From Gammaproteobacteria bacterium (GTDB lineage: Bacteria > Pseudomonadota > Gammaproteobacteria > JAPPPA01): a stretch of 64,000 nucleotides of DNA. Under the pieces are notes generated by a model that worked only from the letters and a program-made list of their open reading frames with translations, made no database searches and had not been told where the DNA came from. Each line of letters begins with the position of its first letter. Positions within the stretch are counted from its first letter, which is position 1. Where the stretch lies: assembly GCA_030425645.1 (NCBI GenBank), contig JAUHZK010000006.1:1-64000 (forward strand), written 5' to 3'. Both the position numbers and the translations under genes were made by a program. Below are positions 12,365-50,773 of the stretch, one piece after another.

Positions 12365-12375
12365 GGACAGGGAAA

Positions 12376-12451
<76 letters not shown>

Positions 12452-12583: not shown

Positions 12584-12595
12584 AGCGACTTATGG

Positions 12596-12626: not shown

Positions 12627-12668
12627 AAGTGATTTTTAAGGCACTTGGTTCAGGCAGGTTTTAGAGCA

Positions 12669-13163
12669 ATGAGCAACCCGCAAGTCGGCATCATTATGGG
12701 CAGCAAGAGTGACTGGCCCACCATGCAAAAAGCAGCAGAAATGCTGGATGAGTTAGGCGTTAGCTACGAGGCTAAAATCGTCTCTGCTCACCGTACGCCA
12801 GACTTGCTATACCAATACGCCGAAACCGCTGCTGAGCGCGGCATCCAAGTCATTATTGCTGGTGCTGGTGGCGCTGCTCACTTGCCAGGCATGTGTGCGG
12901 CAAAAACCATTCTGCCGGTGCTAGGTGTGCCGGTTAAGTCACGTACCTTAAATGGCATGGACTCGCTGTTATCTATCGTGCAAATGCCTAAGGGCATTCC
13001 AGTGGGTACGCTCGCAATTGGTGATGCTGGTGCGGCCAATGCTGGCCTAATGGCGGCGAGCATCGTGGCTTTGCAAGTGCCAGCAGTAGCTGACAAGTTG
13101 AATGCATTCCGTACTCAGCAGACCGATACGGTGCTGGGTATGTCTTTGGAAGACGCCGAATAA
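12669..13163 (+). CDS. purE: 5-(carboxyamino)imidazole ribonucleotide mutase PurE
   Basis: A 164-aa class I PurE, converting N5-CAIR to CAIR in purine synthesis. From the ATG at 12669 it begins [19 protein letters not shown], the standard start; an in-frame TTG 24 bp upstream adds nothing conserved. The active-site motifs [16 protein letters not shown] and [12 protein letters not shown] are intact. The conserved [17 protein letters not shown] and [12 protein letters not shown] segments follow. It is paired with purK one base downstream, which supplies its substrate. Confidence 0.97.
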
Positions 13164-13164
13164 G

Positions 13165-28412: not shown

Positions 28413-28437
28413 CGCTACTAGCTTTTGCCTAGTAGCG
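28413..28437. terminator. Stem-loop between converging genes
   Basis: CGCTACTAG, CTTTTGC and CTAGTAGCG form a perfect 9-bp stem straddling the stop codon of the minus-strand gene at 28418. There is no T run on either side, so it is a weak candidate for a terminator and may instead block exonucleases at the two converging 3-prime ends. Confidence 0.35.
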
Positions 28438-34449: not shown

Positions 34450-36201
34450 TTAATACATCAACGTCAGGTTGGCGAGGATGGAGTAAGGCGACTGGTCTGT
34501 GCCGTAGAGGTTTTCAAACCCTTCACCAGGAATTAAATAGGCCGCTGACAGTCGGCCAACAATGTTTTGTGTGGCGAAGGGCCGGTAGATGGCTGAAATG
34601 GATAGATCAAAACCAATCTCGGTTTCTATTTTGCCTTGGTTGCGGGCCGCTTCTAGCACGGCGGTTTCGGCAAACCAAAGGTGGTTGGCGTTAAAGCTTA
34701 GGCGCGTGCTAGGTGTTAGGTCTAAGTCAGCGCCCAGTCCCAGCAAGGTAATGCCGGGGTTGGTGAAGTTAGACTGGCCCTGTTCTTTAGATGATCGCAG
34801 GCTGTTAAGAATGCTATTGCGCCCCGATAGGGCGACGCGGCCGCCACCAATTAATGGCACGGTTTGCCTAATCCAATAGCTGGTATCAGCGCCAGCAAAA
34901 AGTGGGTTTTCAAATACAGCATCAAAGCCGCCAGCGTCGTTATCAAACGGATCGTCATCGCCTGAGGCGTGTAAAAATGAAAAGCGCCAGCGCACCCAGC
35001 TTTGATCGAAGCCCAGCTCGGCTGCAATAAAGTAAGCGCCGATGTCGCCGGGTTCGTCGATAAAGGTGCCGCGACTTTCATCGCCAATCGCGTAATAGGC
35101 CGAGAGCGTGATGTTCAAGCGCTCCCAGTGGCCGTCGCCGTTATAACCTAAGTAGGTGACGTCGTAATCGCGTGGCACTTCGATGCCGATAGAGGCGGGG
35201 CGGGCAATAAAGCCGTTAGTGTCATAGAGCACTTGGTCGCCTTCGCGGTTACGGTTGTGCAGCAACACAAACTGCGAAAAGTAGCCCAGTTTGGGCATGT
35301 CCTGCCAGTAGAGGTTGGCAACAAAAACATCGTCGTCTCGTAAGCCTTGTTCTACGTCATTAAGGCCACTGTTGGTGTCTTTTTCAATGCGTCGGAACCA
35401 GCCAAGGTTGTATTGGAATTTGTTGTTGTCGCGAATACCAAATAGCCGCACGCCGAACTGTTGGTCGTTGAATAAAAAACCTCTAAAGTCGGCGTTAAAT
35501 GGTTGAATTCCAATGCGAACTGAGTCGAAGTCGTAACGGTCGGAGACGTTGCGAATATGGTAATCAAATAGCGCTGCCTGAATGCCAACGTGGTTGTCGG
35601 TACGGTGCGTGCCGGCATTGGGATCAGCCCGCGTAACGGCCCGCTCGTTCGCGTCTAAGACGTTGTAGTTAATCACTGGCGTGAAGCGAAATTCGTAGTC
35701 AGGCGGGCGGAAGGTGGTGTCGCCTTTATAGAGTACCGTTTCCAAAATGAGGTTGCCCGCGGTGACCGTGGTGTCGCCCTCACCGATCAGATTTAAGGCA
35801 CCGCTGTCGTTGGTGGTGGCGTTGCCAACGGGGATAGGGAAATGCCGCGGCTCGTAGATAAGGTCGGCGATACCAATCAGGCTGAAAAACCAGTCATCAC
35901 CAAAGATCGGCCGGTCGCCTTTGAGCCAATTATTGTTGTTGTATGGGTCCCAGAGGTTTTCTGGGTAGCCGAGGGCGCTAACAATACGCCAGCGGTCGGG
36001 CACGGTGATGCCGTCGCTTAGGCGCTCAATTTGGCGTTTGTCGTCGTCACGGTGGTGGCAGCTGTCGTCGTCCCATTTTAATACGGCTTCACCAGGTCTA
36101 GATAAGGGTTGGCTTTGGTCGCATTTGCCGTCCGCAGCAAAGCTGCTGGTGCTGCTTAATAGTAGGGCAGCGATAAAGCCGGTTTGGAGCTTATTTGCCA
36201 T
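34450..36201 (-). CDS. Outer-membrane beta-barrel protein of the cytochrome operon
   Basis: A 583-aa protein with a clean signal peptide (MANKLQTGFIAALLLSSTSSFAAD). The chosen ATG at 36201 has GAGGAG about 10 nt upstream; two earlier in-frame ATGs are too close to that site. A Cys-containing N-terminal segment follows. The rest is a series of alternating amphipathic strands with aromatic belts (WVRWRFSFLHASGDDD, LNITLSAYYAIGDESRG), ending in SPYSILANLTLMY with a C-terminal aromatic, the usual barrel-insertion signal. It is enclosed by multiheme genes. I infer a porin sheath for an electron conduit by analogy with MtrB/PioB, although direct sequence similarity is not evident. Confidence 0.75.
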   Translation of the reverse strand: MANKLQTGFIAALLLSSTSSFAADGKCDQSQPLSRPGEAVLKWDDDSCHHRDDDKRQIERLSDGITVPDRWRIVSALGYPENLWDPYNNNNWLKGDRPIFGDDWFFSLIGIADLIYEPRHFPIPVGNATTNDSGALNLIGEGDTTVTAGNLILETVLYKGDTTFRPPDYEFRFTPVINYNVLDANERAVTRADPNAGTHRTDNHVGIQAALFDYHIRNVSDRYDFDSVRIGIQPFNADFRGFLFNDQQFGVRLFGIRDNNKFQYNLGWFRRIEKDTNSGLNDVEQGLRDDDVFVANLYWQDMPKLGYFSQFVLLHNRNREGDQVLYDTNGFIARPASIGIEVPRDYDVTYLGYNGDGHWERLNITLSAYYAIGDESRGTFIDEPGDIGAYFIAAELGFDQSWVRWRFSFLHASGDDDPFDNDAGGFDAVFENPLFAGADTSYWIRQTVPLIGGGRVALSGRNSILNSLRSSKEQGQSNFTNPGITLLGLGADLDLTPSTRLSFNANHLWFAETAVLEAARNQGKIETEIGFDLSISAIYRPFATQNIVGRLSAAYLIPGEGFENLYGTDQSPYSILANLTLMY

Positions 36202-38164
36202 TACAAACATTCTCCTCATTGCTATCTAGAAACGGTTTCTGTGGACAGTTGATATAACGTAGGCGGGTGCCTTGTGGCGTCAATTGGTCGGCGCGTATGG
36301 CTACCGGGGCGTTGTTTACGGTGCCTAGCGCTAGGCCAGCATTATGTACGCCAAGAAATGAAATCATATCGTCCTGATCAATGCCGTCGCCCGAGACGCC
36401 GATAGCGCCAATGAGGGTGCTGCCGCGATAGATGGGCACCGAGCCTGGGAAAATTTGGCTGCCGTTAGCGAGGCGGCGGAAGTCAGGGTCGGGCGGGCCG
36501 CCGAGTCCGGCGCAGCCTTTGGGTACGTCGGTACCGACTAATTCGGCTACAAAGGCAACGTGGCCAGCGATACCGTTATAGCTGATATCAAGCTGAAAGC
36601 CGGAAGAAAAAACGCTCCAGCGGTCCTTGCCGCCACTGAAGGGTTTGCTTAAGGGCCCATGTGGGTTGCCATTGATGCCATCCGGGTAGAACGGTCGAGA
36701 GAGGTTGCCGCCTGAGCGGTCAGCAAAGGCAAAGGCACCGTCCGCTAATGCCGTAGGGGAACCGAGAAAGTCCCGGACTGCGGTGATGTAGTCACTGAGT
36801 TTGATGGTTTGTCCGCTAGTGCCATCAGCGTTTAAGTAGGTGACATCGGCTAGCTTGTCCATGACATCGGCCGCTTTATCACTGGAAAAGAAGGCCGCCG
36901 TGCGTGCTTTTTGCAGCGACACGTCTAAACCGAAAACTGGCGCATCGCGGCCACGGACTTGGCCAAGTACGGTGCCGTCTACATCTACCACTGAAATCGA
37001 AACTCGAGCCGGTGTGCCTAGTGGCCGTCTAATTTGGCCGCGCGCACGATTGGCGATTAGTAATGCTTGTTTGAGCAACTCCGATACTTCAGTGGCGCTG
37101 AGGCCGCTGGCGCCGGCAATGGGCGGAAAGCGATTGCTGTCGCTGCCATCAACTGCTACAAAAGCGTCGGCATCGACCAAGGCTTGGTCATTGGGGTCGC
37201 CGGGGAAATCTCCCACAGTGGCGGCACGAATGCCTGAGGCGGGTGTGCCAAAGGCAGTGCCGGCCCTGACCACCGCGGGCTCAAAGTAGGATCTAACTTC
37301 AAGTAAGCTGCCCGAGGAAGGGGTAGCGGGAGCAGTGCTGGGGTCTCGAATGAGATCGGCTGCCGTGGCATCGGTAAATCGTAGCACCTTGCCGTCTACA
37401 GTAATGCGATCAGCCCGCCGCTCAATGGGTGCAGTAAAACCTTGGCTGCCGGCGAGGGCGATCGCTTCATCAAGATCGCTGTCAGTGTCTAACAGGTTTT
37501 TATCGATACCGTAAATACCGTCGGCTATCACACCAATGCCGCCAACCGGCACGCCGTCTTTATAAAGGGGAATGCCACCGGGGTCAGCGGCCAATCCCAG
37601 TGGGGAACGTTGGGGGCCTGTTTCACCCGCACGCTGCATAAAATCAGAGCAGGGAAGCTGCGAAAATTGCACGCCAAATAAAGGCCCGGCGGCTTGCCGT
37701 AGTTCCCCGGGATTAAAATGCTCCTGCACGATTTGGTTTGCCGTGCGGGTGGTGAAGGCATTGCCTTCGGTGCTGAGAAAACTCGCGGTAATGGCTTTAG
37801 CAATCGCGGCCATGCCACTAGGAATGAAGTTGAGACCTTCTAGGCCTTCGCCTTCGCGGGCGCCGGTATTGCTATCAAGTGGCTCGCTAGTGACGGTGGC
37901 GGTTTTGTCAGCGCCGCTCATGGCAAACACGCTCAACACATTGCCTACGCGGTCGGTAACAGCGATGGTGGCACTGGCGTTGCGTGCGAGGGCTTCTTCT
38001 ACGGCTTGCGACGTTACCCGATTGACATCGGCTTCAGTTAGGAAACTAGAGGCATTGGAGCAGGCGCCGGAGCAGCCACTTTGGTCACCGCCGCCTCCGC
38101 TGCTGCAGGCGCTAATGGCAGCGGTGATAAATAGAGCAAACAGGAGTTTGGCTTGTTTTGTCAT
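36191..38164 (-). CDS. Lipoprotein with two GlcG/HbpS heme-binding-type domains
   Basis: A 657-aa lipoprotein: the lipobox region ISACSSGGGG follows a short signal, then a Gly/Ser/Cys-rich linker. Two copies of the GlcG/HbpS fold are visible. The first has VTSQAVEEALARNASATIAVTDRVGNVLSVFAMSG, then PLYKDGVPVGGIGVIADGIYG. The second begins LLKQALLIANRARGQIR and SISVVDVDGTVLGQVRG, and ends in VPIYRGSTLIGAIGVSGDGIDQDDM. HbpS-type domains bind heme or act as small-molecule sensors. Its stop overlaps the barrel start by 11 bp, and its ATG overlaps the previous gene by 4 bp. It could cap or assemble the conduit at the membrane, but its job is unknown. Confidence 0.75.
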   Translation of the reverse strand: MTKQAKLLFALFITAAISACSSGGGGDQSGCSGACSNASSFLTEADVNRVTSQAVEEALARNASATIAVTDRVGNVLSVFAMSGADKTATVTSEPLDSNTGAREGEGLEGLNFIPSGMAAIAKAITASFLSTEGNAFTTRTANQIVQEHFNPGELRQAAGPLFGVQFSQLPCSDFMQRAGETGPQRSPLGLAADPGGIPLYKDGVPVGGIGVIADGIYGIDKNLLDTDSDLDEAIALAGSQGFTAPIERRADRITVDGKVLRFTDATAADLIRDPSTAPATPSSGSLLEVRSYFEPAVVRAGTAFGTPASGIRAATVGDFPGDPNDQALVDADAFVAVDGSDSNRFPPIAGASGLSATEVSELLKQALLIANRARGQIRRPLGTPARVSISVVDVDGTVLGQVRGRDAPVFGLDVSLQKARTAAFFSSDKAADVMDKLADVTYLNADGTSGQTIKLSDYITAVRDFLGSPTALADGAFAFADRSGGNLSRPFYPDGINGNPHGPLSKPFSGGKDRWSVFSSGFQLDISYNGIAGHVAFVAELVGTDVPKGCAGLGGPPDPDFRRLANGSQIFPGSVPIYRGSTLIGAIGVSGDGIDQDDMISFLGVHNAGLALGTVNNAPVAIRADQLTPQGTRLRYINCPQKPFLDSNEENVCNGK

Positions 38165-39828
38165 TGCGCCTCTCCGGTCGTGTTCATCCAGCCGTGTTCG
38201 GGTAAGTGGTAGCTATGGCAATCAATGCACTGGGAGTCGATCAAGCTGCTGTCGCCGGGGTTGCCGTGGCAAGTTAAGCAGTTTTCTCGGCTTGGGATGA
38301 GCACATCTTGCGAGTGCTCAGACGTTTGCGCGCCGCTATGGCAATCCGTACAAGCCATTGATTGATGGCCAGCATGGTCGAATTCGGCGTCATCTATCCA
38401 GCGCCTGTTAACGTTCACTGGGCGGATATTCCAGGCACTGATAAGGTCTCCGCTCTCTAGCGCAGCGGTGTTACGACTGACTTCATGACAGGTAACACAG
38501 CCGCGTTTTTCGATAAGTTCGCTGGCTAGTTCAATTAACGTTAACGCTTGTTGCTGCTGTCGTTTATTGGGGCCGGGCCGTTGCAGCGACGGTTCTTTAG
38601 CGGCAGCAGCAGTGCGGCCATTTAGGCTTGATTTAAGCTCGGTTAGACCTTTTAGGCCAGCGATGTCACGTAGTGTGGCGCCGATGTCGCCATGACGGAC
38701 GAATAGGTCGGGGTTGTCGGCGTCAAAGTCGAGCCGGTGGCAGCTATCGCAATGTGCTTCCATATTGATGTCTTGCATGCCGCGGCCGCCCGGCTCGGGT
38801 TGATGGCAGTCGTTGCATTGCATGACTTTAGGGTTACCGTCCTCACCATCTAGTCCCTCGGGGGCTAAATGTACGTCGTGTGGGAATATTAAGCCGCTTT
38901 GTTCCTGTGGTTGCTGCGCCGCATTCTGTTGTGCCCATTGCCATTCAAGCGAGTCTTGTTGCCAATGCGGCGTCAGTAAGGTGATTTCAGGATGGCTCAG
39001 GCGCCAGTCATGGATATTGGCCTGTTTGCTGTTGCCATTGCTGAAGTGTTGAATGTCTTCATGGCAATGTACACACAGCTGTTTGTCGCCGGTAATCAAC
39101 TCGGTGCGACCGTTGTGTTCCTTGTGACAACTTTGGCAGTCGGCATTCTGTAACTCATCAATGGCAAAGCGTTGCGGGTCAGCATGTGTCGCCACTTCTT
39201 GGTGGCAAGTCATGCAGGCGCTGTTTTCGACTTGTGCAAAAGGCTGTTGATGGCATTGGCTGCAGTCGTCGGCAAAAAACTGGTGGGCTGGGTGAAACTC
39301 GCCGCTATTCCAGAGGCTGTGATTCGGTAGTAGCGGAATATCGGTATCGTCGGCTAAGACGTAGCGTTGCAGCAGCGGTGCCGCTAGAAAGATCAGGCTG
39401 ATGGCGAGCAACAGCCCCCATGACCAGCGTCGCTTCGAAAACCCACTGTCGGCCAGTCGCGTTTGAAAGGGCTTATATGCCGGCCTTGCGGTGGTTTCGT
39501 CGACATCGACGTTTACCGTAAGGCCATCGGCCGTTAGTTGAACCCTGAAGTGATGATTGCCAATTTGAAATTGGTCATCGTTTTCTAGCCAAGCTTGCTG
39601 AACCGTTTTGCCGTTTAAGCTAACGCCTTGTTCGCTGCGGGCGACTAACTGTAGGCGATTGTTTTGGTACTCAAGGCTGGCATGGCGAAGGCGCACGTTT
39701 GGCCAGTCGAGCTGGATGTCTTGTTCATTACTAGCACCGATATCTACGTGGTCTTGTGACAGCTTGCGATGGCCGTCGGCGACTTCGCCGTTGCTGGTGA
39801 TCCGTGTTCTGATGATGTGAATGGTCAC
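38161..39828 (-). CDS. FHA-like domain / membrane anchor / decaheme cytochrome c
   Basis: A 555-aa three-part protein starting at GTG. Residues 1-105 resemble a cytoplasmic FHA fold (VDIGASNEQDIQLDWPNVRLRHASLEY, then GVSLNGKTV and NDDQFQIGNHHFRVQL). The Arg and Ser that contact phosphothreonine in GR and SxxH are replaced, so binding may be lost. A single helix near 134-155 (WGLLLAISLIFLAAPLLQRYVL) follows. The periplasmic part has ten CXXCH sites: CSQCH, CMTCH, CQSCH, CVHCH, CNDCH, CDSCH, CVTCH, CTDCH, CLTCH and CIDCH. It starts 4 bp after the cytochrome b gene. I infer that it takes electrons from that protein in the inner membrane. Confidence 0.8.
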   Translation of the reverse strand: MTIHIIRTRITSNGEVADGHRKLSQDHVDIGASNEQDIQLDWPNVRLRHASLEYQNNRLQLVARSEQGVSLNGKTVQQAWLENDDQFQIGNHHFRVQLTADGLTVNVDVDETTARPAYKPFQTRLADSGFSKRRWSWGLLLAISLIFLAAPLLQRYVLADDTDIPLLPNHSLWNSGEFHPAHQFFADDCSQCHQQPFAQVENSACMTCHQEVATHADPQRFAIDELQNADCQSCHKEHNGRTELITGDKQLCVHCHEDIQHFSNGNSKQANIHDWRLSHPEITLLTPHWQQDSLEWQWAQQNAAQQPQEQSGLIFPHDVHLAPEGLDGEDGNPKVMQCNDCHQPEPGGRGMQDINMEAHCDSCHRLDFDADNPDLFVRHGDIGATLRDIAGLKGLTELKSSLNGRTAAAAKEPSLQRPGPNKRQQQQALTLIELASELIEKRGCVTCHEVSRNTAALESGDLISAWNIRPVNVNRRWIDDAEFDHAGHQSMACTDCHSGAQTSEHSQDVLIPSRENCLTCHGNPGDSSLIDSQCIDCHSYHLPEHGWMNTTGEAQ

Positions 39829-39832: not shown

Positions 39833-40696
39833 TTACCAATATAGAAATACCACTACGACATGCGCAGTTAGGGCGGTTAATAGGGCAATGGTGGCCGGCA
39901 CATGGAGCATGAGCCAGATGTCTAACATGGCGCGAATGCGGATGTCTTTGCGAATGCGTTGCAGTAGCTGGCTGCGGCGGTTGAGTGCTTCAATAATATT
40001 GCGAAGGTTGGCGTTGTGCTCGGGGTCGTTGTCGCCTAGTAAAGCGGCAAAATGAGCAATAACGGTTCTTTGGTTAGGGTTTGACTGGCGTTTGTCATTG
40101 ATAACCACGGATGAAAAATCTTTTTTGCTGAGCTGTCGCCAGGCGTTGCCGCCGAGGCTGGTGCCTTCTAGGCTGCTGTCGACTGCCGCTCTAAGGTCTT
40201 CGTCGAGCATTTGGCTGCAGCTCACGACTTGGCGATCGGCATCGTCAAGTTGGGCCAGTAATTCTGCCTGGCTACGGTTGTCGCGGTTGCTGCTTAATGG
40301 TCCTGGATAGCGGACATAGACAACAATGCCGAAAAAACCGCTGCTAATGACTAAGCACATCAGTACATAGGTCAGGGTGTGTAGATTCCACGCGAACTGG
40401 AAGCCAGTGTGCAAGGTGCCGATAAAAAGCAGTCCCATGCCCAAGTAGATATGGGCCGACAACCAACCCTGTACCGTGCTTGATGTTGAGTGGTAATTGC
40501 GTTTACGGACGCCAAACCATGCCAGCCAAACGATCAGCAAGGCAGCAATAGTGCCGAGCGTGTACCCCAACCACGTGCCGCCATTGGCGACAGGTTGTGG
40601 TGAGTGCCAAGCGTAAGCAGCAATAGATGCAGTGGAAAGTAGCGTTGCTATTTTGAGCCAGCGAGCTTTTTTGTAGCGTAGCGTGGATTGGTGCAT
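39833..40696 (-). CDS. Di-heme cytochrome b-like membrane protein
   Basis: A 287-aa protein with five predicted membrane helices (about 13-30, 43-62, 81-100, 107-127 and 263-286). Two helices each carry a His pair spaced 14 residues apart: H82/H96 and H265/H279. This is the pattern of a bundle holding two bis-His b hemes, one near each membrane face. A soluble loop of about 130 residues (ELLAQLDDADRQVVSCSQML and following) separates the two helices. It heads the six-gene cytochrome operon. I infer a quinol-oxidising entry point that passes electrons to the FHA-decaheme protein. No known b-cytochrome family is a clear match. Confidence 0.68.
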   Translation of the reverse strand: MHQSTLRYKKARWLKIATLLSTASIAAYAWHSPQPVANGGTWLGYTLGTIAALLIVWLAWFGVRKRNYHSTSSTVQGWLSAHIYLGMGLLFIGTLHTGFQFAWNLHTLTYVLMCLVISSGFFGIVVYVRYPGPLSSNRDNRSQAELLAQLDDADRQVVSCSQMLDEDLRAAVDSSLEGTSLGGNAWRQLSKKDFSSVVINDKRQSNPNQRTVIAHFAALLGDNDPEHNANLRNIIEALNRRSQLLQRIRKDIRIRAMLDIWLMLHVPATIALLTALTAHVVVVFLYW

Positions 40697-40739: not shown

Positions 40740-40850
40740 ATGAGTATCGCCAATGTGGCATATGCTTTCAAACAAAAAATGGTACTGTTATTCAATATCG
40801 ATTCGTTTTTTACTAGGCATTTATGCGACTCAAACACGCCCGCGGCTTGA
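40740..40850 (+). CDS. Candidate 36-aa leader peptide of the cyclase gene
   Basis: ATG at 40740, with AGGAG at 40729-40733 and a 6-nt spacer, opens a 36-codon frame. It overlaps the first 28 bp of the cyclase gene in another frame and ends at TGA 40848-40850. This ribosome site is far better than the one before the cyclase ATG (AGG only). Translation of the leader could feed ribosomes to the cyclase start. The peptide (MSIANVAYAFKQKMVLLFNI and on) has no known family. Confidence 0.3.
   Translation: MSIANVAYAFKQKMVLLFNIDSFFTRHLCDSNTPAA
40743..40771 (-). promoter_or_regulatory. Candidate promoter of the cytochrome operon
   Basis: On the minus strand, TTGAAA (40771-40766) and GATACT (40748-40743) are separated by 17 bp, 47 bp before the cytochrome b ATG. 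The -35 box matches 5 of 6 consensus bases and the -10 box 4 of 6. It lies in the 126-bp gap shared with the divergent cyclase gene. Confidence 0.4.
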
Positions 40851-43063
40851 TCATTCGGCTCACCATCGCTATCGCGATGACAGCGGTGTTTGTTATGCAC
40901 GTTAGAGGCGATTGGCATTTGGCTTTGGTTGCCCAAATGGAACGCAACTTATACGACGCCCGTTTACGTTTAGCCTTACCAGATGAGCGCCCTAGCTCGG
41001 TGGTGATTGTTGATATTGACGAAAAGAGCATTGCTGAATTAGGCCACTGGCCGTGGCCAAGAGATGTATTGGCGCAGTTGTTAGATAAGTTGTTCGACGA
41101 ATATGGCGTCCGTGTCGCTGGTTTTGACGTGGTCTTCGCGGAGCCTTATGAGGCTTCGGCATTGAGTTTGTTAGATGACTTAGAAGGCCAGCTTAGTGAC
41201 TTGAACGCTGAAGACCGCCAGTTAATTGCGGCGCAAAGGCAGCGTTGGAATACCGATGAAACTTTTGCGGCCTCATTGATTGGGCGTGACGTTGTGCTTG
41301 GTTATGTCTTTAAGGACCGTTTAACCGCAGATGAGCCGGTGGGGGCGGGGCGCTTGCCAGAGCCGCTGTTCACTAAGGCACAAGTAGCGCGTTTAGATTT
41401 GGCGATGGCCGAGGCGCAGGGCTATGTTGCGCCCTACGAAATGCACACGTTTGCGAGTGAGTACGCCGGATTTTTTAGTAACCCCTATGTCGATAGCGAC
41501 GGTATTTTTCGTCGCGTGCCATTAATGCAGCAATTTGAAGGCGATGTTTATAGTTCGCTTTCGTTGTCAGTGGCGAGTGCCGCCTTGGGCGGAGTGATGC
41601 CCAGTTTTGTTTTTGCCGACCCTGAGAATGCTGCCCTCGACGCCGTTAACCTAGAAGGTTTGCAGCTCGGGGATAGGTTTTTGCCTGTGGATGGTCACCT
41701 GAATGCGCTCGTGCCGTATCAAGGTCCAGCTGGCAGTTTTCCCTATGTCTCTGTGGTTGACGTGCTGTCTGGGCAGGCTGATATAGAAACCTTATTCGAC
41801 AGCATCGTGTTGGTTGGCACCAGCGCCCCGGGTTTGTTGGATTTGCGTGCCACGCCTGTTGGTGCACGCTTCGTCGGGGTCGAGATCCACGCTAATTTAG
41901 TGCATGGCATTCTCAATGGCGGATTAAAGAGCAGCCCGCACTATATGCAGGGGGTTGAGCTGGTGGCTTTGTTGATGGTTGCAGTGCTTGTAACTCTGTT
42001 GAGCTTGCTGTCTGCCGGGCTAGGGATTGCTGGTTTGGTGGCCTTGGTGGTGGCGGTTTTTTATGCCGGTTTATACGGCTGGCAACATCATGATTTAAAT
42101 ATTCCGGTGGCTTCCTCCATCGCCTTGGCGACCAGTCTGTTTTTGCTGCAATTTGCCTACTCTTACGCCGTTGAGTCGCGCAAGAAACGGCACTTGTCGA
42201 AGGTGTTTGGCCAATACATTCCGGAAGAACTGGTGGCTGATTTAGATGCCTCTGAAGAAGAAGTCAGTTTGGAGGGTGAGAGCCGTGAAATGTCGGTCTT
42301 GTTCTCTGACGTGCGCAGCTTTACTAGTATTTCAGAAGGCTTAGATCCAATTGAGCTCACTCAGCTCATGAATGAGTTTCTAACGCCGATTACCCGCGTT
42401 ATTCATGAGAACCGGGGCACCATCGACAAATACATGGGCGATGCGGTAATGGCGTTCTGGGGCGCGCCTTTGCACGATGATCGGCATGCTTACCACAGCG
42501 TTACCGCAGGCCTAAAAATGATTGAGGCGCTAGATGCGTTGCAGCCGCATTTCCGCAGCCGTGGTTGGCCTGAAATTAAGGTTGGTGTTGGTGCCAATAC
42601 CGGAGCCATGAATGTCGGCAATATGGGCTCTGAGTTCCGCATGGCATATACCGTGTTGGGCGACACGGTTAACCTTGGCTCGCGGCTAGAAGGTTTAACC
42701 AAACAGTACGGTGTGCAGTTTATTGTGAGTGAGTCGACGGCCTTATCCGCGCCGGAATATCTTTACCGTGAACTCGATGCCGTTAGGGTTAAGGGCAAGC
42801 AGGAACCGATACGTATATTTGAGCCATTAATGGCGGTTGAGCAGGCTAGTGAAGCCGACATCGAAATGATCGGCTACTGGAATCAGGTACTAGAGTTTTA
42901 TCGTTTTCAGCAGTGGTCGGAAGCAAAGCAGGCATTGCAATCCTTGTTGGCTGATGACCCGCAACGGATGATTTATCAGACTTATCTGCAGCGCATAGCG
43001 GCGTTTGAGCAATCGCCACCACCGCCTGACTGGGATGGTGTTTTCACTCATACCAGCAAATAG
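40823..43063 (+). CDS. CHASE2-domain class III adenylate/guanylate cyclase
   Basis: A 746-aa membrane cyclase. After a first helix (LTIAIAMTAVFVMHVRG) comes a periplasmic CHASE2 sensor (about 35-365) with the family motif SSVVIVDIDEKSIAELGHWPWPRDVLAQLL and, near its end, VLVGTSAPGLLDLRATPVG. Three closely spaced helices follow (about 374-450), then the catalytic domain. Metal Asp residues are in VLFSDVRSFTSIS and in the DKYMGDAVMAFWGAP segment. MAYTVLGDTVNLGSRLEGL holds the transition-state Asn and Arg. The Lys of DKYMGD favours ATP. It is divergent from the cytochrome operon and followed by TPR-barrel and FecR genes, suggesting a sensory unit producing cAMP for the nearby cyclic-nucleotide-binding oxidoreductase. 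Confidence 0.88.
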   Translation: MRLKHARGLIIRLTIAIAMTAVFVMHVRGDWHLALVAQMERNLYDARLRLALPDERPSSVVIVDIDEKSIAELGHWPWPRDVLAQLLDKLFDEYGVRVAGFDVVFAEPYEASALSLLDDLEGQLSDLNAEDRQLIAAQRQRWNTDETFAASLIGRDVVLGYVFKDRLTADEPVGAGRLPEPLFTKAQVARLDLAMAEAQGYVAPYEMHTFASEYAGFFSNPYVDSDGIFRRVPLMQQFEGDVYSSLSLSVASAALGGVMPSFVFADPENAALDAVNLEGLQLGDRFLPVDGHLNALVPYQGPAGSFPYVSVVDVLSGQADIETLFDSIVLVGTSAPGLLDLRATPVGARFVGVEIHANLVHGILNGGLKSSPHYMQGVELVALLMVAVLVTLLSLLSAGLGIAGLVALVVAVFYAGLYGWQHHDLNIPVASSIALATSLFLLQFAYSYAVESRKKRHLSKVFGQYIPEELVADLDASEEEVSLEGESREMSVLFSDVRSFTSISEGLDPIELTQLMNEFLTPITRVIHENRGTIDKYMGDAVMAFWGAPLHDDRHAYHSVTAGLKMIEALDALQPHFRSRGWPEIKVGVGANTGAMNVGNMGSEFRMAYTVLGDTVNLGSRLEGLTKQYGVQFIVSESTALSAPEYLYRELDAVRVKGKQEPIRIFEPLMAVEQASEADIEMIGYWNQVLEFYRFQQWSEAKQALQSLLADDPQRMIYQTYLQRIAAFEQSPPPPDWDGVFTHTSK

Positions 43064-43186
43064 ATCAGTAACTTCTATACTGTGGGGTAGGTGATAGTGG
43101 TGGGCGAACGTCTGCACTCTATACGGGGTCGTCAATCCGCTATATGCTAATAGTGAATATACAAAGTGTTAACAGAAAGGGTTGCT

Positions 43187-45061
43187 ATGAATTTGCGCAA
43201 ATGGCGCGTTACCGTCTTGTTTTTGACGCTGACAGGAGCGGCTGCGGCAACGGCCAATACAGCCTCAGCCAGTGAAACACAGTCTCCGTTAGAGGCGGCG
43301 TTCATTGCGCTGGCCGATAATAACCCTGCGGCTGCCGCTAAGGCCCTTAAAACTGTGTCGGCTGAGCGTTCAGCAATGCTGGAGTACCAACTCATGTTGG
43401 CTATTTCGCAGCTTGAGTTGCAACAATTTGAAGCCGCCCAATTAACGTTTCGTGGCCTAGCCAAACAGGCTGTGCGTGATCGAAGCGCCATTATGCTAGT
43501 TACCCAGCAACTGTATAGAAAATTGCAGATCGCCCGCACGGCGGGCGGTTATCCACTACCACTGGCTGCCAAGCATTACGAGTCAATGGATAGTGCGCGG
43601 CGCATGAACATTAACTTTAACCGTCGCTTGTTGGGGCTTCCCTATATTGGTGATGTGACACCTTGGAAAGCCACTAGTGCTCCCGCGCAAAGCTTTAAGC
43701 CGAGACCGAAACCCTATGCGGGCCCTCGCCAAGCGCCCGCGGCTAAGCAAGCGCCTGCGGCTAAAGCGGTGTCAGCAAAAATATCGGCGGTGTTGATGAC
43801 TGAAATGCAGCGCGCCGCGCAGCTGCTTGATCAGGGCAATGCTGCTGAAGCCTTCGCCTTGTTACAACCACATGAGTTTGATGGTGCCGGTAATTTGCAA
43901 TTTGATTATCTGCTGGGTACGGCGGCGGTAGATGCCGGCGCTGCTGATGAAGCGATTTTTATTCTGCAACGGGTGTTAGTGCAAAACCCTCGCCATGCCG
44001 CAGCCCGCTTAGAGCTAGGGCGAGCTTATTATGCAAATGGTGATTACGCCGACTCGCGGACCGCTTTTGAGACCGTGTTAACGCAATCGCCACCGCCAGC
44101 CGCTAAAGCGCTATCAGAGCAGTATTTAGTGGCAATTGATGATTATTTCTCGAGCCGTCTAACTAGCTTGGTACCGTTTGTAGAAGCGCGTATTGGTTAC
44201 GATACGAATGTGAATGGCGCCACTGATGATGCGCAGCCTTTCAGTGCGCTGGTGGGGGTGCCTGCGGCCATTCGCGGATTGACCCTGCAACAGAACAGTT
44301 TAGAAACTGACTCGGCCTTTATTAACGTGGCTGCTGGCGCTGGCTATAGCAAGCAATTTAAACCGCGTTACTTTTTCCGTACTGGGGTTCGTTTAGACGC
44401 GCAAAGTAATGCGGACGCTAGCTTTGTTAATACGCAGTCATTAAAGGGTTATGGCAACTTTGAATACCGCCAAGGACGCCAACTTTTAGGCCTTGGGCTA
44501 GACGTATCGCATAGCTACGTGGGCGGCGACTTTAATGCTAATACCGCTGGCTTATCTTTGCTGGGTGGCACCAGCTTAAGCAAGCATTGGTCTGGTAACG
44601 CGCAGCTACGGGCGGCTGTTCGACGCTTTACCCGAACGCAGGATGTCAAAGATAGCACCGACCACACCTTGTCGCTTTCGGCAACACGCTATTGGTCTGG
44701 TAAAAACCGTGTGACGAGCACCCTGGGGGTTATTGCTCAGGATGTCGACGCAGAAGCGGACATTCACAGCAAACGGGTGTTGGGTTTCCAAAGTAACGTC
44801 AAATGGGTGGCGTTTAGATCGGCCCTAATTTCGGTGTCTGTTGCGGCGCTACGCGCTGATTACGAGGCAGTCATTGTCGGCAGCGAAGATCGTGTTGACG
44901 ACAGTTATTTGCTGGGATTCGGGGTCACTAAATATTCCTCGCGTAATCCCAATTTGAAGTGGTTATTCAATTTAGACGCAACGCGTACGGACTCAAGCCT
45001 AGCGTTGTATAACAGTGATGGCGTTAAAGCCTCTCTAGGAGTGCGCTATGACTTCCGCTAA
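43187..45061 (+). CDS. TPR-containing outer-membrane beta-barrel protein
   Basis: A 624-aa exported protein; the ATG at 43187 with AAAGG 6 nt upstream gives a proper signal peptide (LRKWRVTVLFLTLTGAAAATANT), better than an ATG 7 codons earlier. N-terminal helices and two TPR-like repeats (QAPAA-linker, then NAAEAFALLQPHEFDGAGNLQFDYLLGTAAVDAG and HAAARLELGRAYYANGDYADSRTAFE) occupy about residues 25-320. From about 335 on there is a barrel-like series of strands beginning VPFVEARIGYDTNVNGATDD and ending KASLGVRYDFR. This resembles surface-lipoprotein-assembly-modifier-type proteins. It overlaps the FecR gene by 14 bp. Confidence 0.72.
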   Translation: MNLRKWRVTVLFLTLTGAAAATANTASASETQSPLEAAFIALADNNPAAAAKALKTVSAERSAMLEYQLMLAISQLELQQFEAAQLTFRGLAKQAVRDRSAIMLVTQQLYRKLQIARTAGGYPLPLAAKHYESMDSARRMNINFNRRLLGLPYIGDVTPWKATSAPAQSFKPRPKPYAGPRQAPAAKQAPAAKAVSAKISAVLMTEMQRAAQLLDQGNAAEAFALLQPHEFDGAGNLQFDYLLGTAAVDAGAADEAIFILQRVLVQNPRHAAARLELGRAYYANGDYADSRTAFETVLTQSPPPAAKALSEQYLVAIDDYFSSRLTSLVPFVEARIGYDTNVNGATDDAQPFSALVGVPAAIRGLTLQQNSLETDSAFINVAAGAGYSKQFKPRYFFRTGVRLDAQSNADASFVNTQSLKGYGNFEYRQGRQLLGLGLDVSHSYVGGDFNANTAGLSLLGGTSLSKHWSGNAQLRAAVRRFTRTQDVKDSTDHTLSLSATRYWSGKNRVTSTLGVIAQDVDAEADIHSKRVLGFQSNVKWVAFRSALISVSVAALRADYEAVIVGSEDRVDDSYLLGFGVTKYSSRNPNLKWLFNLDATRTDSSLALYNSDGVKASLGVRYDFR

Positions 45062-46922
45062 GTTCAATCTTAAGCGCCTTTGCTGGCAAGCCAGCGTGTT
45101 GGTATTGCTAAGTGTTTTTAGCTTGGTGTCGCACGCCGCTGACCCGGTTGGAAAAGTGCTATTCGCCATCAATGATGTTCAAATTGAGCGCGCCACGGGG
45201 GGCAGCCAAACCGCCGCTAAAGGTGATGCGCTCTACGAGGGGGATACCGTGATTACCGGCACCCAAGGGCGTGCGCAGCTACAGTTTGTAGACGGTGCCC
45301 GTACGGCCTTAAGGCCCGGGTCTGAATTGGTCATCGAATCTTACCGTCCGGTTACTGAAGAGCAGAATGGAGAGCTGCTGGTCGCCAATGGTGGCTCTGC
45401 GGTGTTGGGCTTGCTTAAGGGTGGCATGCGAGCAGTGTCTGGCAAGATTACCAAAGGCAACCCAGACGGTATGACAGTGAAAACACCGGTCGCTACCATG
45501 GGGATTCGTGGCACCGATTTTACGGTTGTCCTGACCCGCGGTGACGGCGAGGCCGTGGTGCTAAATATCTCAGTGCGCGACGGTGTTGTTCGCGTCAGCA
45601 ATGAACTCGGTGAAATTGACGTCACGACTGGCGAGTTTGCGCAGGCGTTGCAGGGCATTTTGCCGCAGCTGCTGTTAGAGCCACCGCCAGCGTTATTGGA
45701 TGATACGGCCGGCGGTGCTACCGGGAGCGGCCAAGGCGGCAGTGCCGGTGGTTCAGCAATAGGGTCGTCTAGTAGCCCCTCAGGTAGTTCGTCGGGCAGC
45801 AATACTTCGGGTAATTCCCCAGGCGGTTCAGCAGGCAGTGGTACCGGCACTGAAGGCGGCAGCGACAGTAGTAACAATACCGGCAGTAGCCCGACGGGTA
45901 TGCGGCACAATGCGCCGGTAACTAATAGCGATGAACCACCGGGCGCGTTGCCGCCTCCACCACCTACAAGTCCGCCGGTGCCGGAGAATCCGCCTCAGAC
46001 AACGGACGGCCAAAATCTTGAAGACCCAGAAACAGAGCAGGAAGAACCGCCACAGGTCTTTAGGCTTTCAATGGGCGCTGACCAAGACGGTGGTCCTGAT
46101 GCCGCCGATGATGTGATTGTTGGCGGTGCCGACAATACCTCTGAGGAGCTTATTCGTGACAGCAATGGTTCTCTGCGCCAGTTCACTACGCAGAATGCGA
46201 GTTTCTTGGCTCAAGGCGCAAACGATGTGGTCACGGTCAGCATCATTGGTGTTGACGTTGATACGGCTCAGGTGCGTGATCGTGGCGCTGATGCCGTTAC
46301 TGGATTTGAATGGGGGCGTTGGGCAAACGGTACCGCGGCAGTTGCGTCGGCCGGTGGCGGTGCGCCTGAAGTGGTGAGTCTAATCGGCGATCAAAGTATT
46401 CATTGGGTCTATGGCCTGCCGGTAGAAGGTGAGCCTTTGGCTGAAGTTCGTGGCCAAGCCATGTATGTGGCGGTTGGTGGTACCACGCCGACAGACAATG
46501 CGGGCAATACTGGCACCTTGGATACCGTATTTTTGGTGGCGGATTTTGAGACCGCAGATGTGTTCTTAGATATGCAGTTCACCATGAATCACCCAGAGTC
46601 GATCGAGCAGTTAACGTGGAATGTTTCCGCCGACGGTCAGATGGCTGCTGGTGGTGTGATGCCGTTTAGTGGCAGCTTGGTTAATGGCGGTATTACCACC
46701 GATTTTGAAGGCTTTCCAACGCCTGCGGGGCAAGTGTCCGCTGGGGGCTTCTCGGGTAGCTTTTCGCCCAATACGGTAACGTTTGGCCCCGATGCGACCG
46801 TGCCGACAGGCGCAGGTTTTGGTTATAGTTTCTCAGGATTCTGTGACTGCAGCCCAGATGGCAACATTACCGTTAGCGGTGTCGCTGTGGTTGGTAACCC
46901 TGAGAGTGAAGGTGGCTTGTAA
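45048..46922 (+). CDS. Secreted FecR-domain protein with low-complexity linker
   Basis: A 624-aa protein with a Sec signal (LVLLSVFSLVSHA) and a FecR domain (about 28-190). The FecR core GKVLFAINDVQIERATGGSQTAAKGDALYEGDTVITG, then AQLQFVDGARTALRPGSELVIESY and TPVATMGIRGTDF, is complete. A long Gly/Ser/Asn-rich linker (about 222-290) and a Pro-rich stretch follow. The C-terminal domain of about 270 residues has strand-rich sequence resembling that of heme-binding or surface-exposed barrels (GGFSGSFSPNTVTFGPD). An AGGAG site precedes the ATG, which overlaps the upstream gene. Periplasmic FecR proteins of this type are often next to CHASE2 cyclases; there is no sigma factor here. Confidence 0.78.
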   Translation: MTSAKFNLKRLCWQASVLVLLSVFSLVSHAADPVGKVLFAINDVQIERATGGSQTAAKGDALYEGDTVITGTQGRAQLQFVDGARTALRPGSELVIESYRPVTEEQNGELLVANGGSAVLGLLKGGMRAVSGKITKGNPDGMTVKTPVATMGIRGTDFTVVLTRGDGEAVVLNISVRDGVVRVSNELGEIDVTTGEFAQALQGILPQLLLEPPPALLDDTAGGATGSGQGGSAGGSAIGSSSSPSGSSSGSNTSGNSPGGSAGSGTGTEGGSDSSNNTGSSPTGMRHNAPVTNSDEPPGALPPPPPTSPPVPENPPQTTDGQNLEDPETEQEEPPQVFRLSMGADQDGGPDAADDVIVGGADNTSEELIRDSNGSLRQFTTQNASFLAQGANDVVTVSIIGVDVDTAQVRDRGADAVTGFEWGRWANGTAAVASAGGGAPEVVSLIGDQSIHWVYGLPVEGEPLAEVRGQAMYVAVGGTTPTDNAGNTGTLDTVFLVADFETADVFLDMQFTMNHPESIEQLTWNVSADGQMAAGGVMPFSGSLVNGGITTDFEGFPTPAGQVSAGGFSGSFSPNTVTFGPDATVPTGAGFGYSFSGFCDCSPDGNITVSGVAVVGNPESEGGL

Positions 46923-46949
46923 GCCGTAACGCTTTGCGGCGGCTAGTGG

Positions 46950-49361
46950 TTATTCTTCGAGATTGGCCACTAGCTCAGTCAGCTGTTCGGGGCCTAGTCG
47001 CATGGCCGCGCCGGTGGGGCAGGAGCGCACGCAGGCGGGGCCGCCTTTTTGGCCAACACACTGGTCGCATTTGACGGCCTTCTTAACCACGTCTTTAGGT
47101 GATTTGAAGCTGGGATCTTGGCCTGGTCCGGGCCCTTTGCCAAACAGCAACCATTGCCATAAAGATGGTTTTTCCGGCGGTTTTGCTGCCAGTTGAATGA
47201 CGCCGTAGGGACAGTTGCGGACACAGTTGCCACAACCGATACAGCTATCTTTGATATAAACCTCACCGTTGTCTGCACGACTAATGGCGTCCGGTGGGCA
47301 TTCCTTCATGCAATGCGGGTTTTCGCAATGGCGGCATGAGGTTGGTAAATGCAAACAGGCGAAACTGACGCCAGCTTCTCGGTCGAGCCGAGAAACGCCA
47401 TCGTGGGTGTCGGCGCAGGCTTTTTCGCAGTTGTCGCAACCGACGCATAGGGTTTCGTCAATCACGAGAGCATTCGTCGCTTCGCCGAGTCCTTGCTCCA
47501 TCATAAATGACAGTACGGCACCATTGCGGGGCTGAGCCTCCATGCGGGTATCGTTCTGGATGCGGGTTTGCAAGGTTTGTCTGATTTCCTTGCGAATATT
47601 CGGCTCTAAGGCGAGTAGGGCATTGAAGGCTTCGCTATTCAGAGCAATGGTTTCTGAGGCAACGTTGGCGGTGATGGTGGCGGGTTGGTCACTGCCGGAG
47701 AGTACGGCGGCTTCGCCGATATATTGGCCGGCAGATAGGTAACCAATGACTGTTTCTTGCTGTTGTAGCTGGCGCGAAATACGCACTGAGCCTTTGCGAA
47801 TAAGGTGGAAACTGACATCGCTATCACCTTCGCGCATGATTTGGTCGCCCGGTTTATAGCTGTTCAGCGTCGCTGCTGCGGCGATAGGTTGGAGCTCGGG
47901 AATGCTTCGGTCTGGCGCGAAGCGTGTTTGGATGGTGCGGATGATGAAGGTTTCGTCGAGCACACGTTTCACGGTGTCGTCCGAAGCAATCAACTTGTTC
48001 ATCGTGCGTCGTGGGGTTTCAATCAGGACGCAATCCTCACCAGCGACAATGGTGGCGGTGCGCCGGCGGCCTGAGAGTAAGCCCATTTCGCCAAAAAACG
48101 CGCCCTGAGGGATGGTGATGCGGCGCTTACCGGCTTGGTCGAGTAATACATCAACACTGCCGTTGGCGATGGTATAGAAGGTGTTGCTGTAGTCGCCTTG
48201 TTTAAAGACGATATCGTCGCTTTTGGGGTGGTGAATATTGCTGTCGAGAATAACTTCTCGGAACATCAAGGCATTAACGTCAGTAAATACCCGTAGCCTT
48301 TCTTGGAACAGCGCCAGTGTGGCATCAACGTCGAGCGCAAATGGTAAATCGGCTAGCTTTTCTTCCAGCAGGGGGTGGTCGGCTGGTTTGATGTCATTGC
48401 CGAGTATGTACTCTACAACTTCATAACCTTGGTTCATGGCTTGCTTAATGAGCGGGTAGCCGCCGAGAGCGCCAATAACATAGAGTCCGCTCACATTGCT
48501 TTCGTACTGCGCTGTCAGCTCGGGTAGTGCGCCGGGGCTGTCGTTGGGGAATTCAATGCCGCAGCTTTCAACGAAAGGTCGTGGGGGTATGGCACCCAGT
48601 CGGGCAATGATGCGATCGGCTGCAATGGTGAGTTCGCCAGTGTCCGTTTTTAAGCTCACATTCATCGGCGTATCGGCCTCTGGCGTGAGTGCAATGCTGC
48701 CGACATTGGCGCTATAAACAATGTTTAGCAGGCCGTCTTCTGCCGACTTAAGAATAAGATCAATATTGCCTTGTTTGGCGCGAGCGAACTCGTCCCTGCG
48801 GTTGACGATGTAAACCTGATTACGGTTGGCTGGATTGGCTAGGCCAACGGCATTTTCAATCGCGGCGTCACCGGCGCCGAGCACCACAATGGTTTCGTCT
48901 TTGTATTCGTTGGGATCGTCTAGCTGGTATTGAACGCGGTCAAAGTCGTCATTTTCAACGCCTACGCGGCGAGGGTTACCCTGCAAGCCGATGCCCATAA
49001 TGATGGTTTCGGCTTGAATGGTTTTGCCGTTCTTGAGGCCAATATTGAAATCGCCTTTAGCACCGCTGATTTCGGTAACCTCGGCGTTATATTCGATATT
49101 AACCTTGAGTTCGCTGAGGCTGTTTTCCCAAGAGCTGAGAATGTCTTCTCGTTTACCAACGTCAAATTCGAAAGGGCTGCGGAGCGGTAAAATGCCGGGT
49201 TCTGCCATCACATGTTTACCTTTTTGGTACTTCTGGATGGTGTCGGCGTGTTTCGCTTTGGCTTCTAACAGGATGTGTTTAACACCGAGTTCGGCGGCGT
49301 GCCCGGCGGCACTGAGCCCGCCCGGCCCAGAGCCGATAATTGCGATTTGATATTTACTCAT
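46950..49361 (-). CDS. FAD/NAD(P) oxidoreductase with two cyclic-nucleotide-binding domains and a four-cluster ferredoxin module
   Basis: An 803-aa protein with three modules. Residues 1-320 form a thioredoxin-reductase-like flavoprotein (IAIIGSGPGGLSAAGHAAELG for FAD, VVLGAGDAAIENA for NAD(P)H, GLYVIGALGGYPLIKQAMNQG near the end) without the CxxC disulfide. About 365-620 holds two cNMP-binding domains. The first phosphate cassette FFGEMGLLSGRRRTAT keeps the Glu and Arg; the second, YIGEAAVLSGSDQPAT, has lost the Arg. About 640-790 is a DmsB/NrfC-like module with four Cys groups (CVGCDNCEKAC, CRHCENPHCMKEC, CIGCGNCVRNCP, CDQC...CVRSCP). It is cytoplasmic. I infer a cAMP-gated enzyme passing NAD(P)H electrons toward the membrane. 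Confidence 0.85.
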   Translation of the reverse strand: MSKYQIAIIGSGPGGLSAAGHAAELGVKHILLEAKAKHADTIQKYQKGKHVMAEPGILPLRSPFEFDVGKREDILSSWENSLSELKVNIEYNAEVTEISGAKGDFNIGLKNGKTIQAETIIMGIGLQGNPRRVGVENDDFDRVQYQLDDPNEYKDETIVVLGAGDAAIENAVGLANPANRNQVYIVNRRDEFARAKQGNIDLILKSAEDGLLNIVYSANVGSIALTPEADTPMNVSLKTDTGELTIAADRIIARLGAIPPRPFVESCGIEFPNDSPGALPELTAQYESNVSGLYVIGALGGYPLIKQAMNQGYEVVEYILGNDIKPADHPLLEEKLADLPFALDVDATLALFQERLRVFTDVNALMFREVILDSNIHHPKSDDIVFKQGDYSNTFYTIANGSVDVLLDQAGKRRITIPQGAFFGEMGLLSGRRRTATIVAGEDCVLIETPRRTMNKLIASDDTVKRVLDETFIIRTIQTRFAPDRSIPELQPIAAAATLNSYKPGDQIMREGDSDVSFHLIRKGSVRISRQLQQQETVIGYLSAGQYIGEAAVLSGSDQPATITANVASETIALNSEAFNALLALEPNIRKEIRQTLQTRIQNDTRMEAQPRNGAVLSFMMEQGLGEATNALVIDETLCVGCDNCEKACADTHDGVSRLDREAGVSFACLHLPTSCRHCENPHCMKECPPDAISRADNGEVYIKDSCIGCGNCVRNCPYGVIQLAAKPPEKPSLWQWLLFGKGPGPGQDPSFKSPKDVVKKAVKCDQCVGQKGGPACVRSCPTGAAMRLGPEQLTELVANLEE

Positions 49362-49408: not shown

Positions 49409-50773
49409 TTATATCACACCATAAGCGAGCATGGCGTCAGCAACCTTGGTAAATCCGGCGATATTGGCGCCGTTTAGGTAGTTGACGTAGCTGCCTTCGT
49501 CACCGTGTTCAACGCATTTACCATGAATGGCTTGCATGATCTCGCGTAGGCGTGCGTCTAAGTCATCTCGTGTCCAGCTCAAGCGCATACTGTTTTGGGT
49601 CATCTCAAGCCCGGAAACGGCAACCCCGCCAGCGTTGGCAGCTTTAGATGGCGCATAAAGTATCTTGGCATCAATATACTTCTGAATCCCCTCGGGTACG
49701 GTCGGCATATTGGCGCCTTCGGAAACCGCTATGCAGCCGTTGTCGATTAGGGTTTGGGCTTCATCAGCGGAGATCTCATTTTGAGTCGCACAGGGCAGGG
49801 CAACGTCGCAGGGTAAACCCCAAGGGCGTTGTCCCTCATGGTAGCTAGCATTCGGGTATTGCTTGAGGTACTCGTTAATACGAACGCGTTTAACGTTCTT
49901 CAGTTCTTGTACGTGAGCTAGGCGCTCGGCATCAATGCCGTCAGGGTCGTGAATAAAGCCACCAGAATCCGACAGCGTTAATACTTTGCCGCCGAGTTGG
50001 GTAAATTTCTCGGCGGCGTATTGGGCAACGTTACCGGAACCGGAAACGCAGGCGGTTTTGCCCTCAATGTCGTGGCCGGCGTGTTTGAGCATGTCTTGCA
50101 GCATATAAACCGCACCATAGCCTGTGGCCTCGGTGCGGATGAGCGAGCCGCCAAAGGCCAAGCCCTTACCTGTGAGTACGCCAGTGAATTCATTAGTAAG
50201 ACGTTTGTGTTGGCCAAACATATAAGAAACCTCACGCGCACCGACGCCAATGTCGCCGGCCGGTACGTCGGTTTGGTGGCCGATATGGCGCGAGAGTTCG
50301 GTCATAAACGCTTGGCAAAAGCTCATCACTTCACGGTCTGATTTGCCCTTGGGGTTAAAGTCAGAGCCGCCTTTGCCAGAGCCCATTGGCAGGCCGGTAA
50401 GGCTGTTTTTAAATGTCTGTTCGAAGGCTAGGAATTTGAATGTCGAGAGGGTGACATCTTTATGGAAACGTAAGCCGCCCTTGTAGGGGCCGATGGCGTT
50501 GTTATGTTGCACCCGATAGCCACGGTTTACCCGAACGTTACCGGCGTCGTCTTGCCAGCACACTCGAAAGATAATAATGCGATCTGGTTCTGTCAGGCGC
50601 TCTAGGATTTTGGCTTCTTGATAAATGGGCTTGTCGATAATGTAGGGGATGATCGTTTGCGCGACTTCTCCTACTGCCTGATGGTATTCGTGCTCGCCTG
50701 GATTGCGACGAGCTAGGCCTTCCATAAACTGCTGATAATGCTCGGCGGCCTTGCCGGTGAGTGCTGTGGTCAT
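49409..50773 (-). CDS. gdhA: NADP-specific glutamate dehydrogenase
   Basis: A 454-aa hexameric-type enzyme catalysing reductive amination of 2-oxoglutarate in the cytoplasm. Substrate-binding motifs include YRVQHNNAIGPYKGGLRFH and LPMGSGKGGSDFNPKGKSD with the catalytic Lys. The Rossmann domain shows ACVSGSGNVAQYAAEKFTQLGG, and the C-terminal part NAGGVAVSGLEMTQNSMRLSW is standard. The length and sequence suit the NADP-dependent family for ammonia assimilation. It lies 30 bp after the DUF3307 gene and 47 bp before the oxidoreductase on the same strand, so a shared message is possible. Confidence 0.96.
   Translation of the reverse strand: MTTALTGKAAEHYQQFMEGLARRNPGEHEYHQAVGEVAQTIIPYIIDKPIYQEAKILERLTEPDRIIIFRVCWQDDAGNVRVNRGYRVQHNNAIGPYKGGLRFHKDVTLSTFKFLAFEQTFKNSLTGLPMGSGKGGSDFNPKGKSDREVMSFCQAFMTELSRHIGHQTDVPAGDIGVGAREVSYMFGQHKRLTNEFTGVLTGKGLAFGGSLIRTEATGYGAVYMLQDMLKHAGHDIEGKTACVSGSGNVAQYAAEKFTQLGGKVLTLSDSGGFIHDPDGIDAERLAHVQELKNVKRVRINEYLKQYPNASYHEGQRPWGLPCDVALPCATQNEISADEAQTLIDNGCIAVSEGANMPTVPEGIQKYIDAKILYAPSKAANAGGVAVSGLEMTQNSMRLSWTRDDLDARLREIMQAIHGKCVEHGDEGSYVNYLNGANIAGFTKVADAMLAYGVI

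Follow-up and report, generated by a model that had tools for sequence, protein, structure and literature searches.

In the stretch of DNA analysed here (64,000 nucleotides, the window), a CHASE2 class III cyclase lies next to a multiheme cytochrome operon and an oxidoreductase, OX, that carries two cyclic-nucleotide-binding (CNB) domains. We give a probability of roughly 0.55 to the reading that a dedicated, envelope-sensing cyclase supplies cAMP as an allosteric effector of OX, the electron-entry flavoprotein that would form the NAD(P)H gateway to the multiheme chain. That a whole transmembrane electron chain is gated directly by cAMP, with a cyclase dedicated to one redox enzyme and no transcription factor, is a more tentative proposal, to which we give somewhat less than even odds. 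The cAMP-gateway reading is based on the linkage of the genes, the order of the domains, conserved residues and a cyclase clade specific to the cluster. If it is true, the OX system would offer a compact, testable example of how a second messenger controls electron flow. OX is a candidate point at which an undescribed cytochrome chain takes electrons from NAD(P)H or returns them. The genes concerned are the following.

29284-30576, minus strand: tetraheme cytochrome (4 CXXCH)
30573-34445, minus strand: large decaheme cytochrome with C-terminal LVIVD/propeller repeats (PF08309, 10 CXXCH)
34450-36219, minus strand: outer-membrane barrel, 18 predicted strands, AlgE-like fold (AlphaFold model; Foldseek AlgE E=8.5e-17)
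36191-38164, minus strand: HbpS-like exported protein (PF03928, 3.8e-20)
38161-39828, minus strand: FHA-domain decaheme cytochrome (PF00498, PF14522, PF14537; 10 CXXCH)
39833-40696, minus strand: CYTB, inner-membrane protein, predicted di-heme b (two His pairs spaced 14)
40823-43063, plus strand: CHASE2 and class III (adenylate) cyclase, 746 aa (Pfam PF05226, 1.2e-53; PF00211, 7.7e-22)
43166-45061, plus strand: exported TPR and outer-membrane barrel protein, Slam/T11SS-like (TPR_19, 1.6e-12)
45048-46922, plus strand: exported FecR-domain protein with a conserved Gly-rich C-terminal domain (PF04773, 3.9e-10)
46950-49361, minus strand: oxidoreductase OX, 803 aa, two cNMP_binding domains (Pfam, 121 bits)

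Open reading frames and Pfam searches bear out the layout given in the initial annotation, namely a CHASE2 cyclase divergent from the cytochromes with the TPR-barrel and FecR genes behind it, and a convergent oxidoreductase with two CNB domains. The cyclase is separated by 126 bp from the start of the cytochrome operon at 40696, which runs on the minus strand to 29284 in the order CYTB, FHA-decaheme, HbpS-like protein, barrel, LVIVD decaheme and tetraheme. The FecR gene overlaps the TPR-barrel gene. OX lies outside the cytochrome operon, convergent with the cyclase, TPR-barrel and FecR genes.

This position of OX is exceptional. In 84,980 species genomes scanned, 80 loci with OX relatives were found, 52-88% identical, in Gamma-, Alpha- and Betaproteobacteria; Alcanivorax and Cognaticolwellia are among the culturable members. 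The family is rare: of 369 genomes sampled within the class, 14 carry it. Among the 62 loci with at least 6.5 kb 3' of OX, the CYTB and FHA cytochrome genes follow OX directly in 59. The complete order OX, CYTB, FHA cytochrome, HbpS-like protein and barrel on one strand is found in 55 of the 62, and CYTB and FHA alone in four. The three exceptions are L066 and L084, where the cluster lies upstream of OX, and L006, a locus of the window's own genus, where OX is displaced. Tetraheme relatives are found directly before OX in L066, L081 and L084. Since OX shares an operon with CYTB and the FHA cytochrome at 59 of 62 loci, it belongs to the core of the electron-transfer system, and as a rule it opens the multiheme operon. 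The window is therefore a rearranged form, in which co-transcription of OX with its neighbours was lost because OX has left the operon and is now convergent. A glutamate dehydrogenase gene is located next to or near OX (window 49409-50773; also L006, L023, L029, L047 and L059, unrelated loci), and in L029 it stands between the cyclase and OX. It is a possible supplier of NAD(P)H.

The OX protein is built of a FAD/NAD(P)H module (residues ~1-320), CNB1 (~375-460), CNB2 (~490-605) and four [4Fe-4S] motifs (632-785), the last being absent from the initial annotation. Among 82 OX sequences the flavin-module motifs and the 16 Cys of the four [4Fe-4S] motifs are invariant. No CXXC is present within the flavin module, and the only Cys before residue 639 are C267 and C444. 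An ordinary thioredoxin reductase was thus rejected as its identity, since the flavin module is without a redox CXXC. The score for YpdA, a bacillithiol disulfide reductase, is also far short of the full-length equivalog cut-off (97.7 against 339.9 bits). Three modules are seen in the AlphaFold model (pLDDT 78.5, pTM 0.62), in which the relative domain placement is unreliable; Foldseek searches place its flavin part closest to YpdA and TrxR-like ferredoxin-NADP+ reductases. In the PDB, the CNB pair is best matched by chains of PKG and PKA-R. The two phosphate-binding cassettes are encoded as follows.

48051-48104, minus strand: CNB1 cassette, residues 420-437, GAFFGEMGLLSGRRRTAT, with E425 and R434 invariant
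47676-47729, minus strand: CNB2 cassette, residues 545-562, GQYIGEAAVLSGSDQPAT, with E550 kept and Arg559 replaced by Gln in this genus

CNB1 of the window OX is a cNMP_binding domain with both the cassette Glu and Arg, and G424, E425, G431 and R434 are found in all 82 sequences. In CNB2, E550 is also present in 82 of 82 and R559 in 78 of 82; the window protein keeps E550 and has Gln at position 559, as do the OX proteins of contig C14 and L006. The spacing between the cassette Glu and Arg is 9, as in PKA regulatory subunits. From these residues CNB1 is a predicted cAMP-binding site. It is followed after its Arg by Ser/Thr, which does not separate cAMP from cGMP. CNB folds of FNR/DNR/NtcA-type proteins bind other ligands, and the Arg of CNB2 is lost in the window genus. 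An explanation in which the CNB domains are structural or take another ligand (nucleotide or metabolite), with the cyclase linkage a matter of history, would suit both facts. We regard it as unlikely, since the cassette Glu and Arg are invariant in CNB1 and kept in CNB2 of 78 sequences, and since every catalytic residue is retained in the linked cyclases.

The window cyclase scores above cut-off for both CHASE2 (182.7 bits) and Guanylate_cyc (78.2 bits), with the CHASE2 sensor predicted in the periplasm and the cyclase domain in the cytoplasm. The two metal-binding Asp, the Lys/Thr adenine pair and the transition-state Asn/Arg (D496, D540, K536, T610, N617 and R621) are identical in 28 of 28 relatives. 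In class III cyclases the Lys/Thr pair indicates ATP as substrate, and cAMP is the predicted product.

For the upstream side of OX, 45 loci with at least 7 kb 5' of the gene were informative. In eight of them (L013, L016, L030, L033, L038, L046, L055 and L060) the cyclase, TPR-barrel and FecR genes stand in this order, co-directional and directly before OX; a ninth case is G182 (L170). The stop codon of FecR and the start codon of OX overlap by 4 nt in L016, L030, L055 and L060. This is the sole co-directional signalling unit upstream of OX that recurs across lineages. A different arrangement, with the cyclase inside the cluster and divergent from CYTB, occurs in the window genus and in G039. 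G266, with OX and a cyclase 12 kb apart, was left out of the linked count because gsp-type genes intervene, as they do beside solitary cyclases. Thirteen linked cyclases form one clade (100/99 support) apart from 14 solitary relatives, and the subgroups within it match those of the OX tree; a Rheinheimera assembly belongs to this clade. The one exception is L029, where a distant CHASE2 cyclase, probably a separate recruitment, occurs in the order cyclase, glutamate dehydrogenase, OX. Few lineages are linked: four changes of label are seen along the OX tree.

The cyclase has many relatives (in 92 of 369 class genomes), and on that ground a chance neighbourhood might be proposed. The same gene order in several families makes this very improbable; a rough binomial estimate, for lineages that are not independent, is about 1e-13. 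The conserved order, the overlaps, the cyclase clade and the recurrence of the upstream unit led us to reject chance linkage. The solitary CHASE2 cyclases belong to the same family (~45-50% identity) but fall outside the linked clade and are not beside TPR-barrel, FecR or OX. Neither TPR-barrel nor FecR genes adjoin the 14 unlinked relatives that were inspected; their neighbours are FHA/PP2C/CHASE2-like, gsp or clpA genes, or others. Solitary cyclases beside FHA, PP2C-like and CHASE2-like genes occur in many gammaproteobacteria (L160, L162, L164, L165, L169 and L172).

The comparison of genomes for co-occurrence, which had been proposed as a check, showed a conserved neighbourhood, both in a second copy on contig C14 and in other families in which the cyclase, TPR-barrel, FecR and OX genes are clustered. 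The initial reading of direct gating by cAMP is supported in part. A producer and a predicted binder of the nucleotide are linked in several lineages, in the best cases within one operon whose genes overlap, the linked cyclases are a separate clade and the CNB1 signature is kept in every relative, but a linked cyclase is absent in 37 of the 45 informative loci, and in those the cAMP, if it is the ligand, comes from elsewhere. In the cell of the window, five class III cyclases share the cAMP pool. OX might be regulated by cAMP while the linked cyclase mainly serves a CNB-EAL protein, a CNB-MMPL transporter or Crp, the genes being neighbours through a shared envelope/redox programme. Both CNB receptors exist, most OX loci are without a linked cyclase and a Crp-type HTH is encoded in 18 of the 19 OX-bearing genomes searched. 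Even so, we consider this division of labour somewhat unlikely, in view of the 4-nt overlaps of FecR and OX and the cluster-specific cyclase clade; the cluster showed no further gene with a CNB domain.

The upstream unit contains two exported proteins. Of ten TPR-barrel orthologues, nine match the SlipAM and TPR_Slam profiles (best E-values 1.2e-6 and 2.2e-5, respectively), and the window protein is below both cut-offs (SlipAM 16.3 bits, cut-off 22; TPR_Slam 18.8 bits, cut-off 35.2). The profile matches suggest a Slam/T11SS-like outer-membrane translocon. The FecR domain is present in 8 of 8 orthologues, whose C-terminus gave no other convincing family. The FecR protein could possibly be the cargo of the TPR-barrel. 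A TbpB-type handle was looked for in its C-terminus and no Pfam match was obtained in the eight orthologues; cargo status is therefore a suggestion only. The T11SS literature examined makes no mention of FecR. A role as anti-sigma factor was rejected, as no FecI sigma factor or TonB receptor gene is adjacent to 45048-46922. The resemblance to Slam translocons, together with the divergence of the cyclase from CYTB rather than its junction with OX in the window genus and G039, would fit a cyclase, TPR-barrel and FecR unit that senses envelope stress or surface maturation for the outer-membrane cytochromes and not for OX. We think this very unlikely, because in its operon form the unit abuts OX, the sole protein of the cluster with CNB domains.

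On the electron-transfer side, CYTB gave no Pfam, NCBIfam or PDB family match. Its two His pairs, H82/H96 and H265/H279, are invariant and show a spacing of 14 as in di-heme b cytochromes, and CYTB is predicted to be one. The FHA decaheme is predicted to be membrane-anchored, with its FHA domain in the cytoplasm and its hemes in the periplasm. Most relatives keep the FHA Arg, which the window genus has lost, and many have Ala/Pro in place of the usual Ser that precedes His. To be noted, the FHA domain is a second signalling-type domain within one electron chain, beside the CNB domains. The barrel of the operon is modelled with 18 strands and an AlgE-like fold (AlphaFold, Foldseek) and has no PDB sequence match. 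Multihemes and an outer-membrane barrel in one operon are also known from Shewanella MtrCAB and the Geobacter porin-cytochrome complexes. Membership in the MtrCAB type was rejected, as the barrel is AlgE-like and not of the large MtrB/PioB type, and the system is therefore not to be filed as MtrCAB. Further differences from MtrCAB are the FHA-anchored decaheme, the di-heme b protein and an NAD(P)H module in place of a quinol dehydrogenase.

The cAMP-gateway reading may be put as a sequence of steps. OX would dock on CYTB, and electrons would be exchanged between NAD(P)H and the outer cytochromes by way of FAD, the four [4Fe-4S] clusters, heme b and the membrane-anchored decaheme; this order of carriers is our proposal from the domains and genes present. 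In the envelope, the FecR protein, handled by the Slam-like TPR-barrel, would signal to CHASE2 and so set the activity of the dedicated cyclase. The cAMP would bind CNB1, and in most relatives CNB2 as well, and would alter how the flavin module contacts the Fe-S module. The result would be immediate allosteric control with no transcription. Here cAMP as both product and ligand, the allosteric effect and its sign, and the thing sensed are what we infer. Points against the reading are the 37 informative loci that lack a linked cyclase, the small number of linked lineages, the loss of the CNB2 Arg in this genus, the Ser/Thr of CNB1 that fits cAMP and cGMP alike, the cAMP pool shared by five cyclases, and the departure of OX from the operon in the window.

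In Shewanella, cAMP control of multiheme electron chains is exerted on transcription through Crp. Unlike in that route, the predicted cAMP receptor here is the redox enzyme OX itself. The initial annotation had set direct gating against control through Crp. For the window genome (99.5% complete) this agrees with the absence of any HTH_Crp_2 above cut-off (best 21.3 bits, cut-off 27), and its sister genome has none above cut-off either. That sister genome is the exception among the 19 OX-bearing genomes searched. With a Crp-type HTH in the other 18, the absence of Crp characterises this genus and does not hold for the system in general.

Direct control by cAMP through a fused CNB domain is known from MtPatA/Rv0998, a mycobacterial CNB-GNAT protein acetyltransferase (PMC4964394). 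Like OX, this bacterial enzyme carries its CNB domain joined to the catalytic part, and we take it as a precedent by analogy for the control proposed here; it differs as an acetyltransferase with one CNB, whereas OX performs flavin/Fe-S electron transfer, has two CNBs and is accompanied in some lineages by a linked cyclase. The thioredoxin reductase from the Red Sea Atlantis II combines an N-terminal CNB with TrxR-like FAD/NAD(P) domains in one protein (PMC6544261). In contrast to OX it has a single CNB, at the N-terminus, no reported Fe-S block and no known cytochrome linkage. Residues 1-320 of OX share fold and FAD/NAD(P)H motifs with YpdA/Bdr and TrxR-like ferredoxin-NADP+ reductases at ~20% identity, but OX lacks the flavin-module CXXC and carries the fused CNBs and four Fe-S clusters. 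Its four-cluster ferredoxin block is shared with AegA/YgfT and HydN/HycB-type Fe-S proteins. In AegA this block is also joined to an NADPH flavoprotein. In the AegA/YgfT type the domain order is reversed and no CNB is present, and OX scores far below the curated cut-offs. Collections and literature searched gave no characterised member of the OX family, and no description of the cluster of cyclase, TPR-barrel, FecR, OX and cytochromes was found in the literature searched.

Contig C14 of the same assembly (G000:C14:1-38472; L106, L107) carries a second copy of the whole region corresponding to window 24.5-51 kb, at 52-91% identity. It may be a paralogous second locus or a stray contig of a sister species. 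Its DNA identity to the sister genome's locus is 79.8%, compared with 76.1% for the window, and because C14 is thus nearer to that locus than the window is, we do not count it as proof of duplication. C14 also encodes an extra 2251-aa Ig/cadherin-like protein, whose gene separates FecR from OX, and has an ECF sigma/RskA pair after the tetraheme gene. In the window, the gene 3' of the tetraheme gene (28418-29218) has a weak match to fatty acid desaturase 2 (ferritin-like), and its product is 91% identical to its C14 counterpart.

The CNB proteins of the window genome are only OX (two copies if C14 belongs to it), the CNB-EAL protein and the MMPL-CNB transporter. The transporter has a C-terminal CNB and is encoded at 6596-9397 of L115 (G000 C2). 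A zinc-ribbon/AAA class III cyclase (10315-13848) lies ~1 kb away, and the two are a second cyclase-CNB pair in this genome. The CNB-EAL protein (L116:5664-6857, G000 C11) possibly provides cross-talk from cAMP to c-di-GMP.
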